In this document: piece by piece, positions 13-20,653 of the stretch | Numbering within the stretch: position 1 is the first letter of the stretch | How the letters are laid out: each line of letters begins with the position of its first letter | The notes under the pieces: model-generated | Database searches by the model: none | Seen by the model: only the letters and a program-made list of their open reading frames with translations | What the model was told of the DNA's origin: nothing | Translations under genes and position numbers: made by a program | From: Candidatus Bathyarchaeota archaeon | Lineage (GTDB): Archaea > Thermoproteota > Bathyarchaeia > 40CM-2-53-6 > RBG-13-38-9 | Direction of reading: 5' to 3' | Assembly: GCA_026015185.1 (NCBI GenBank) | Contig: JAOZGX010000044.1 | Location: forward strand, 1-51,320 | Length of the DNA: 51,320 nucleotides

Positions 13-256
13 TCTTTTCCTCACTCATGAAATTTTAGCAACTCTCAATATGCATGTTTTTTGGGGACAGAATCGTAAACTCCAAAGTAATTCCAGTAAG
101 TATTTCGGAGGTGATGGTTAAAGGTGAAATCTATGCACTGAAAACGAAATCTTACGATTCTGGCTTTCCCAATAACCTATTCATGTAGACATACAGGTAA
201 ATGCTATAGATAAGGATTATCATTAATAGTGTCATTAATAGTTGTCATCAACTTTA
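12..256 (+). repeat. Duplicated promoter segment, copy A
   Basis: About 245 bp, closely similar throughout to 6697-6942 (copy C). Its right third, from AATAACCTATT onward, also matches the reverse complement of 2552-2655 (copy B). It contains an inverted pair AGAATCGTAA (69-78) and TTACGATTCT (152-161), and a tandem motif CATTAATAGTGT/CATTAATAGTTGT just upstream of where copies B and C have their TATA box. On the minus strand the left end still reads as the first codons of the gene at 6526-6726, but with a TGA at codon 6, so a gene start was duplicated and then decayed. Confidence 0.85.
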
Positions 257-289
257 TTAGGTAGTCTGCCTAAATTAAATGTTAGAAAT

Positions 290-613
290 ATGTTCAGCAC
301 TTATTATCAGTATGTGAGGCCTGCTGTATATAGCCTCAAATTAAGAGCTGGAGTGACCAACATCATTATTGATTTTAAGTGGGATGGAGGCGGCTCTGTG
401 AGATTAGAGCTTGTAAGCCCAATAAAGACATATACAGAGGACCAGATGAAGATAACGGATAAGACCTCTATCTCTTCAGATGGGTTCGTTGTTTGTAAAT
501 ATCTAAGACGCTATGAGCTTACGATACCTGAGCTATTAAAAGAAGAAATCTGGACCGTAAAATTAAATATCGAAAATATTTTCAGATATCAGCTTGATAT
601 AGAAGCGTCTTAA
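290..613 (+). CDS. Hypothetical beta-rich protein
   Basis: The family is not recognised. The frame is open from a TTG at 242, but that codon lies inside the promoter repeat, so the ATG at 290 (about 107 residues) is the better start. The sequence alternates hydrophobic and polar residues. Its last part, WTVKLNIENIFRYQLDIE, resembles the closing strands of the beta-sandwich modules appended to secreted archaeal proteins. No signal peptide or membrane segment is present, so it may be a surviving piece of a larger secreted protein or a small cytoplasmic protein. It is transcribed from copy A of the repeated promoter segment, whose TATA region is altered here (ACTTTATTAGG instead of TTTATATC). 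Product unknown. Confidence 0.45.
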   Translation: MFSTYYQYVRPAVYSLKLRAGVTNIIIDFKWDGGGSVRLELVSPIKTYTEDQMKITDKTSISSDGFVVCKYLRRYELTIPELLKEEIWTVKLNIENIFRYQLDIEAS

Positions 614-19250: not shown

Positions 19251-20177
19251 CTAAATATTTAACTTTAGCGATTCCTTCAAACCCTTGTATCTGTTTCTGA
19301 CAGTTACTTCTGTTACATTTGCTACTTCAGCGATTTCTTTTTGAGTCTTTTTCACGTCATCTAAGACACATGCTACATATAATGCAGCAGCGGCTAGGCC
19401 CATGGGATCCTTTCCTGATACCACTCCTCTTTTCTTTGCTTCTCCGAGTATCTTTATTGCTGTCCTTTGAGCTTTAATAGGTATTCTAACTTTTGATGCT
19501 ATTTTAGAGACACATCTTACTGGATCCTCAACAGGCATCCTAATATTCAATTCACGAAGTAAAAGCCTATAACATCGAGCAACATCTTTTCTTTTTACAC
19601 TACTAGCGGCAGCGACTTCCTTTAAAGTCCTAGGAGTTTCAGTTGCTCTACAAGCTGCATAGAGAGCAGCTGCGGCTATTGCTGCAATCGATCTTCCCCT
19701 TACTAATCCGCTATCAAGTGCCTTTCTATATATTACTGCCGCCCTTTCCTTAACTTGAGATGGTATATGAAGATTATCTGTTAATCTATCAAGTTCTGCC
19801 ATGGCTTGTGCTAAGTTTCTATCTATAGAAGAATGAACTCTAGTTCTAATCTGCCACTTTCTTAACCTGAGCATTTCTAGCCTGGTTGATATCGGTAATT
19901 GCTTTCCATATGCATCGCGATTTATTCGATCTATTACTGTTGAAAGACCTTTATCATGCATAGAATAAGAGATTGGTATACCGACTCTTCCACGAGATTC
20001 TCTCTCTTCTTTAGTAAATGCTCTCCACTCTGGACCTCTATCCATCACGTTTTCATTTATTACAAGCCCACAAGCCTGACAGATAACCTCTCCACGATCA
20101 TAATCTTCTACAAGGTTGTCGCTTGTACACTCTGGGCATTTTGTTATTTTCCATAATTTTTTTGTGTATGAAGTCAA
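19251..20177 (-). CDS. tfb: Transcription initiation factor B (TFB), second copy
   Basis: About 308 residues. Zinc ribbon CPECTSDNLVEDYDRGEVICQACGLVINE; B-reader GPEWRAFTKEERESRGRVG; SMHDKGLSTVIDRINRDAYG; then two cyclin repeats, with the recognition helix in TQKEIAEVANVTEVTVRNRY. It keeps the canonical B-linker and is closer to the usual general factor than the copy at 3263. GTG at 20186 is in frame, but TTG at 20177 is preceded at proper spacing by GGTGAT and is the likelier start. That ribosome binding site lies in one arm of a seven-base-pair hairpin (20185-20208), suggesting control of translation. Confidence 0.97.
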   Translation of the reverse strand: MTSYTKKLWKITKCPECTSDNLVEDYDRGEVICQACGLVINENVMDRGPEWRAFTKEERESRGRVGIPISYSMHDKGLSTVIDRINRDAYGKQLPISTRLEMLRLRKWQIRTRVHSSIDRNLAQAMAELDRLTDNLHIPSQVKERAAVIYRKALDSGLVRGRSIAAIAAAALYAACRATETPRTLKEVAAASSVKRKDVARCYRLLLRELNIRMPVEDPVRCVSKIASKVRIPIKAQRTAIKILGEAKKRGVVSGKDPMGLAAAALYVACVLDDVKKTQKEIAEVANVTEVTVRNRYKGLKESLKLNI

Positions 20178-20184
20178 AATTATC

Positions 20185-20208
20185 ACCCCTTATCTACTTA
20201 AAAGGGGT
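20185..20208 (-). promoter_or_regulatory. Hairpin sequestering the ribosome binding site of tfb
   Basis: On the minus strand ACCCCTT pairs with AAGGGGT across a ten-base loop. The second arm contains the GGGGT of the tfb ribosome binding site. A base-paired start region like this would slow initiation until melted or bound by protein. Confidence 0.55.
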
Positions 20209-20523
20209 ATTGAGTCTAAAGCTTACGCTAGAATCAGGAAAAATACCTGATTCGTAAGAAAAGCTTATATCTGACCCTTCCCTTTTCCATAGGAAAGCAT
20301 GGAGTTATATTTAAGCTTTTTGTTTTTAGGTTCTATCAAGACCGTATCAGATGTGGATTGTTGTAAAAAATCGCCGAATATTAAATCGCAGTCCTGAAAG
20401 AACGATTCTTCTGTTGAATCTTGTATTAATCTATTACCTTATCAAAAAAATAAAGATTTATGAAAGGTATTATCGACATTAAATAATGGCCCGGGAAAAA
20501 GGGTTGTAGACTTAGAAAGGCAG
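20187..20523. other. Leader/intergenic region between tfb and tRNA-Gln
   Basis: Contains the two hairpins listed separately, a minus-strand TATA-like TTAAATATAAC near 20308-20318, and on the plus strand a TATA-like TTAAATAAT near 20480 that fits the tRNA gene. No protein gene is visible. Confidence 0.5.
20222..20258. promoter_or_regulatory. Inverted repeat upstream of tfb
   Basis: CTTAC-GCTA-GAATCAGG, an AAAAATA loop, then CCTGATTCGTAAG: an eight-base-pair and a five-base-pair stem interrupted by a four-base bulge. If the minus-strand TATA-like TTAAATATAAC (about 20308-20318) starts transcription, this stem and the next lie in the tfb 5' leader; otherwise it could be an operator. Confidence 0.5.
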
Positions 20524-20653
20524 AACCCGGTAGTCTAGCGGCCAAAGTGGGCCTAGAAACGGCTTTGGATAACGGGCTCTGGATCCAAAATATGAGAAGA
20601 TACCCGTAGACGGGAGAAATAGTTCCCGAATTCGAATCTCCCCCGGGCTACCA
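20524..20653 (+). tRNA. tRNA-Gln (anticodon CTG) with three introns
   Basis: A cloverleaf can be built only by removing three short insertions. Acceptor 20524-20530 pairs with 20643-20649 (one A-C mismatch at 2:71), followed by A and an encoded CCA. D-stem GTCT (20533-20536) pairs with GGAT (20567-20570) once about 19 bases near 20548-20566 are removed. Anticodon stem ACGGG/CCCGT (20572-20576, 20603-20607) encloses the loop CTCTGG-A, with an intron at 20583-20601 at the canonical 37/38 site. T-stem GGGAG/CTCCC with loop TTCGAAT is split by 20617-20630. The mature length is 75 bases plus CCA. Exact splice points may shift by a base or two. Confidence 0.85.

Follow-up and report, generated by a model that had tools for sequence, protein, structure and literature searches.

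A three-intron tRNA-Gln(CUG) gene in a Bathyarchaeia genome and predicted four-intron glutamine tRNA genes in that genome and its relatives

Gene Identity and Detection

Positions 20,524 to 20,653 on the plus strand of the window, by which the whole 51,320-nucleotide stretch analysed here is meant, almost certainly hold a functional tRNA-Gln(CUG) gene whose three short introns are predicted to be spliced out, with all exons collinear within 130 nt. The locus was parsed with an intron-aware scanner that requires a cloverleaf with the conserved positions and removes introns only where the sequence allows a bulge-helix-bulge (BHB), defined as a 4-bp helix whose cuts follow the second base of the bulge. 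On the author-set scale of this scanner, which is uncalibrated on known genes, the top parse is tRNA-Gln(CUG) with introns at 21/22, 37/38 and 53/54 and scores 81.4–81.9 in two scanner versions; the best of 1000 dinucleotide shuffles reaches 43.6–44.2, and the runner-up place in the window, across 852 tiles on both strands, scores 39.7. A covariance model (A1), built from nine tRNA-Gln of other Bathyarchaeia (uninterrupted, or single-intron and spliced) and one spliced three-intron relative, matches exactly 20,524 to 20,650 with 45.8 bits and E = 2.4e-8. ARAGORN and Rfam, the latter also at a relaxed threshold, detect no tRNA in the window, so that tRNAs of this kind escape ordinary annotation.

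The gene is laid out as AACCCGGTAGTCTAGCGGCCAA, 21 nt, GGATAACGGGCTCTGG, 19 nt, ACCCGTAGACGGGAG, 14 nt, TTCGAATCTCCCCCGGGCTA CCA (Table 1), and the predicted mature tRNA is AACCCGGTAGTCTAGCGGCCAAGGATA ACGGGCTCTGGACCCGT AGAC GGGAGTTCGAATCTCCCCCGGGCTA(CCA). The spliced form has U8, A14, G18G19, A21, U33 and TTCGAAT, and a single acceptor mismatch. Its identity as tRNA-Gln(CUG) follows from the CTG anticodon, U33, A1-U72, A73 and the similarity to known tRNA-Gln; 64 of 73 positions are identical to the tRNA-Gln(UUG) gene of an uninterrupted relative. The collinear exons show no split or permuted arrangement.

Three introns of about 19, 19 and 14 bases, in the D-loop, at the canonical 37/38 site and in the T-arm of a tRNA-Gln, had been proposed in the initial annotation. 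This is still the best reading after the scan, the shuffles, the covariance model and the relatives that keep all three introns; the sites lie at the end of the D-loop (21/22), at 37/38 and at 53/54, and the lengths of 19 nt (37/38) and 14 nt (T-arm) stand, whereas the D-arm intron is 21 nt. A BHB can form at each junction, with four of four pairs at 21/22 and 53/54 and, in relaxed form, three of four at 37/38.

Table 1. Coordinates of the window tRNA-Gln(CUG) gene, its neighbour and the predicted four-intron tRNA-Gln genes
Feature	Sequence	Positions	Strand	Description
TFB gene	window	19251..20186	-	transcription factor B; divergent neighbour, synteny anchor across Bathyarchaeia
Exon 1	window	20524..20545	+	acceptor 5' strand, positions 8-9, D-stem 5' strand, D-loop to 21
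Intron 1	window	20546..20566	+	21 nt, position 21/22; BHB central helix GGCC/GGCT
Exon 2	window	20567..20582	+	positions 22-37, anticodon CTG
Intron 2	window	20583..20601	+	19 nt, canonical 37/38; outer helix 5 bp, central helix CTCT/GAAG
Exon 3	window	20602..20616	+	positions 38-53
Intron 3	window	20617..20630	+	14 nt, position 53/54; perfect central helix CGGG/CCCG
Exon 4	window	20631..20650	+	T-loop, T-stem 3' strand, acceptor 3' strand, discriminator A73
CCA	window	20651..20653	+	encoded
tRNA-Gln(UUG)	L164 (G000:C51:23709-23862)	210-363		four predicted introns
tRNA-Gln(UUG)	L166	183-333		four predicted introns
tRNA-Gln(UUG)	L179	1386-1541	-	four predicted introns
tRNA-Gln(CUG)	L176	1397-1541	-	four predicted introns; other genome of the order
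tRNA-Gln(CUG)	L173	1388-1546		four predicted introns; other genome of the order

Pairing at the Splice Sites

Against shuffled introns, the central and inner helices together are better than chance at all three sites (P = 0.003 at 21/22, 0.02 at 37/38 and 0.0001 at 53/54), while the 37/38 central helix alone is not significant (P = 0.14). Exon 1 agrees with the D-arm of relatives whose gene has no intron, L073 and L103 among them (GTCTAGCGGTCAAGGAT). The window helix at 21/22 is replaced in sister genes by GGTC paired with GACT, GATC or GATT: an exon C goes with an intron G in the window, L057 and L060(+), and an exon T with an intron A in the rest, the L031 entry being read from its 19-nt parse. 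The exon change from T to C is compensated by the intron change from A to G, which supports the 21/22 BHB. At 53/54, the two genera of the family with an intron there share the perfect helix. The central helix at 37/38 has one C34-A mismatch that is kept throughout the family. Since the T34 isoacceptor pairs fully with a GAAG intron and C34 does not, the sequences suggest that this intron took its form in a UUG gene, ahead of the change in anticodon.

Alternative Readings

The borders of intron 1 are the least certain, because the minimum-energy fold of the whole precursor lacks the 21/22 BHB and prefers a CCAAAG/CTTTGG hairpin, although this fold was deemed uninformative. Three introns with other D-arm borders, for example at 24/25 with CAAA/TTTG, would agree with that hairpin and give a parse scoring 76.3. 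Such borders are nevertheless improbable, as splicing at 21/22 restores the D-arm that uninterrupted relatives have, and every relative can pair at this site, with a covarying base pair. A larger departure would be a fourth intron at 9/10 together with an acceptor strand further upstream (GGCCCGGGA, 20,488–20,496), which would remove the A2-C71 mismatch and takes second place in the scanner (80.3 vs 81.9). It would do so at the cost of the universal U8, would put G1-U72 in place of A1-U72 and would depend on a self-complementary CCGG; moreover, the sister species has the mismatch and no such upstream strand. This arrangement is very improbable.

Equally hard to credit is a degenerate tRNA-Gln pseudogene that has collected insertions. 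The acceptor mismatch and the failure of general tRNA finders at this locus would fit decay, but every other stem pairs, the insertions occupy sites that are compatible with a BHB and conserved in six or more species of the family, and a search of the genome with the covariance model found no other tRNA-Gln(CUG). A functional gene with introns at 21/22, 37/38 and 53/54 is thus the preferred reading.

The A-C mismatch at 2:71 is real in the window sequence. It had been regarded as a possible error or a target of editing; an independent assembly of the sister genus carries it as well, so that a sequencing error is unlikely and was rejected as its source. Among the genes compared, A2-C71 occurs only in the window gene and its orthologue in the sister-genus genome G004, and the other resolved tRNAs of the genome, poorly parsed ones excepted, have seven of seven acceptor pairs. 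A Thg1-like protein (PF04446) for 5' editing has no match in nine genomes of the family. A search for PF00383, the one deaminase family covered for CDAT8-like C-to-U editing, also gave no match. The mismatch weakens the acceptor stem and may simply be tolerated.

Synteny and Variation in Intron Sites

The TFB gene, with 89% identity to the MAG DVMM_2, places the host genome (G000, 1.81 Mb, 96.6% complete) among Bathyarchaeia. In many Bathyarchaeia a tRNA-Gln gene lies near the TFB gene on the opposite strand. In far relatives (L062, L073, L098, L103 and many others) this gene is uninterrupted, further Bathyarchaeia orthologues have one or two introns, and every orthologue found within the same family has three; all of them, with zero to three introns, would give a nearly identical mature tRNA once spliced. 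The sister genus (G004, L031/L112) shares all three sites with the window gene. In distant Bathyarchaeia (L065, L071, L097, L105 and L037), tRNA-Gln(CUG) is interrupted at 10/11, which is also one of the sites in the predicted four-intron genes described below. The contig of L105 is labelled Deltaproteobacteria and has a TFB gene and tRNA of the Bathyarchaeia type; it is likely misbinned or mislabelled.

The T-arm intron differs within the family. Genera g2, g3 and g6 have it at 59/60, where the helix TTCG/CGAA is perfect (with one G-T in g3) and lies inside an intact T-stem, whereas the 53/54 intron of the window gene also occurs in the tRNA-Gln(UUG) gene of the same genome. When 257 genomes of the class were searched by pattern, tRNA-Gln introns at 53/54 were found in six genomes, all of this order, and at 59/60 in 11. 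The TFB tree joins the window and G004 (100/99) within a clade in which L060, a more distant neighbour, has introns at 21/22, 37/38 and 59/60. The two sites may have arisen by loss and gain, by conversion from the UUG gene or by sliding. A slide from 59/60 to 53/54 inside this family was considered, but as 53/54 is found in other families of the order too, the change may have run in either direction.

Two further observations concern the TFB genes. The host genome has eight TFB-like genes, against one to four in most relatives. In L119 (contig C7, about 2802-2821), 20 nt that exactly match the tRNA-Gln T-arm and acceptor adjoin a second TFB gene, a paralogue with 85% identity; this remnant may come from a duplication of the TFB-tRNA locus that has since decayed.

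Predicted Four-Intron Glutamine tRNA Genes

The tRNA-Gln(UUG) gene of the host genome, found with model A1, appears from its sequence to carry four introns: its parse predicts them at 10/11, 24/25, 37/38 and 53/54 and scores 92.2, with 46.9 for the best of 1000 shuffles. The same four sites are present in G004 and in G036, a genome of another family. Between the host and G004, both strands of the 24/25 inner helix have changed at several pairs (AAGTCT/AGACTT vs GAGCTT/AAGCTC). Removal of the four introns gives a predicted mature tRNA that agrees with the uninterrupted L080 gene at 72 of 73 positions. The locus is orthologous, with the same upstream neighbours, to a gene with one intron (21/22) in g2 and g6. 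For tRNA-Gln(CUG), four introns are predicted at 10/11, 29/30, 37/38 and 53/54 in G036 and at 21/22, 29/30, 37/38 and 53/54 in G029.

The tRNAscan-SE 2.0 paper gives up to three introns per archaeal tRNA gene (PMC8450103), and a literature search of partial coverage found no archaeal tRNA gene with four. It is reasonably probable that the tRNA-Gln genes of this order, at up to four BHB introns per gene, exceed the stated maximum. The sites 10/11, 21/22, 24/25, 29/30, 37/38, 53/54 and 59/60 are assorted among orthologues, and UUG orthologues with one or four introns, together with 53/54 or 59/60 in close relatives, make stepwise gain and replacement traceable.

Shortly upstream of three tRNA-Gln genes, at 20,488–20,496 in the window and about 20–25 nt before the gene in L164 and L166, there is a GCCCGGGA motif that could pair with the 3' strand of the acceptor. 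It may be due to chance or be an alternative acceptor strand.

Intron Load of the Genome

By hand tally, 29 of the 36 resolved tRNA genes of the host genome have at least one intron and about 21 have two or more; Lys-UUU, Pro-UGG, Gln-CUG and Gln-UUG have three or more. The total of about 55 introns in these 36 genes comes from targeted loci and is a lower bound, with the class II tRNAs the least certain. Apparent 45/46 introns in Ser and Leu tRNAs were rejected as scanner misreadings of class II variable arms and left uncounted. For comparison, Pyrobaculum calidifontis has 71 introns in 46 tRNA genes (PMC8450103), and 92–95% of the tRNA genes of two Asgard lineages have introns, over half of them several (PMC11291895). 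Three introns in one tRNA are known in Thermoproteales (PMC4390854, PMC4090602), but the earlier view that they are uncommon elsewhere is dated, given these Asgard tRNAs and the many multi-intron genes of the present genome.

Probable Splicing Machinery and Proposed Pathway

The genome has two EndA-like genes and an RtcB gene. The EndA alpha subunit (186 aa) aligns with the Aeropyrum pernix subunit through FAVY, DHAPF and VRK, the two PDB chains used in the comparison being those of the A. pernix enzyme, and its K39 aligns with Lys44 of the crenarchaea-specific loop. The second EndA-like subunit lacks the His. Two different subunits, one of them with Tyr/His/Lys and the loop lysine, are what a broad-specificity (alpha-beta)2 enzyme would have at the sequence level, and such an endonuclease is therefore likely encoded here. 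The loop lysine has been tied to broad specificity and to relaxed BHB cutting (PMC6379350).

We infer the following pathway. The window gene would be transcribed with its three short introns, each forming a BHB or relaxed BHB; the putative heterotetrameric (alpha-beta)2 splicing endonuclease, whose genes lie elsewhere in the genome, would cut at every bulge, and ligation of the exons by RtcB would then yield a 73-nt tRNA plus CCA. The T-arm intron would have to leave before the T-stem forms, because its BHB uses bases of the 5' T-stem.

Comparison with Known Systems

The window gene adds a little-studied class of archaea to those in which a known oddity occurs; of more interest than the gene itself are the predicted four-intron genes and the mosaic of intron sites. 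Syntenic tRNA-Gln loci with every number of introns from zero to four provide a handle on intron gain, movement and loss, and four sequential splicings on a 73-nt tRNA would put high demands on the order and fidelity with which a broad-specificity endonuclease works.

One close parallel is in Thermoproteales, where tRNA-Glu(UUC) of P. calidifontis and tRNA-Pro(UGG) of P. islandicum likewise have three BHB introns at canonical and non-canonical sites, and 53/54 is among the listed archaeal tRNA intron sites (PMC4390854, PMC4090602). The present case differs in being a tRNA-Gln of Bathyarchaeia with relatives in the same order that reach a predicted four introns. In the Asgard Atabeyarchaeia and Freyarchaeia, too, most tRNA genes are interrupted, over half of them multiply and at non-canonical sites, but these belong to another phylum and the main text of that report gives no per-gene maximum (PMC11291895). 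Introns in the D-, anticodon and T-arms of one tRNA are also described for tRNA-Ile(UAU) of Cyanidioschyzon merolae (PMC9602550); that organism is a eukaryotic alga with a different enzyme complex. The (alpha-beta)2 endonuclease of A. pernix resembles the putative enzyme in an alpha subunit that is alike over its full length, with the catalytic motifs and the loop lysine, and in the second subunit without the His, whereas the predicted beta subunit here keeps an N-terminal domain match.
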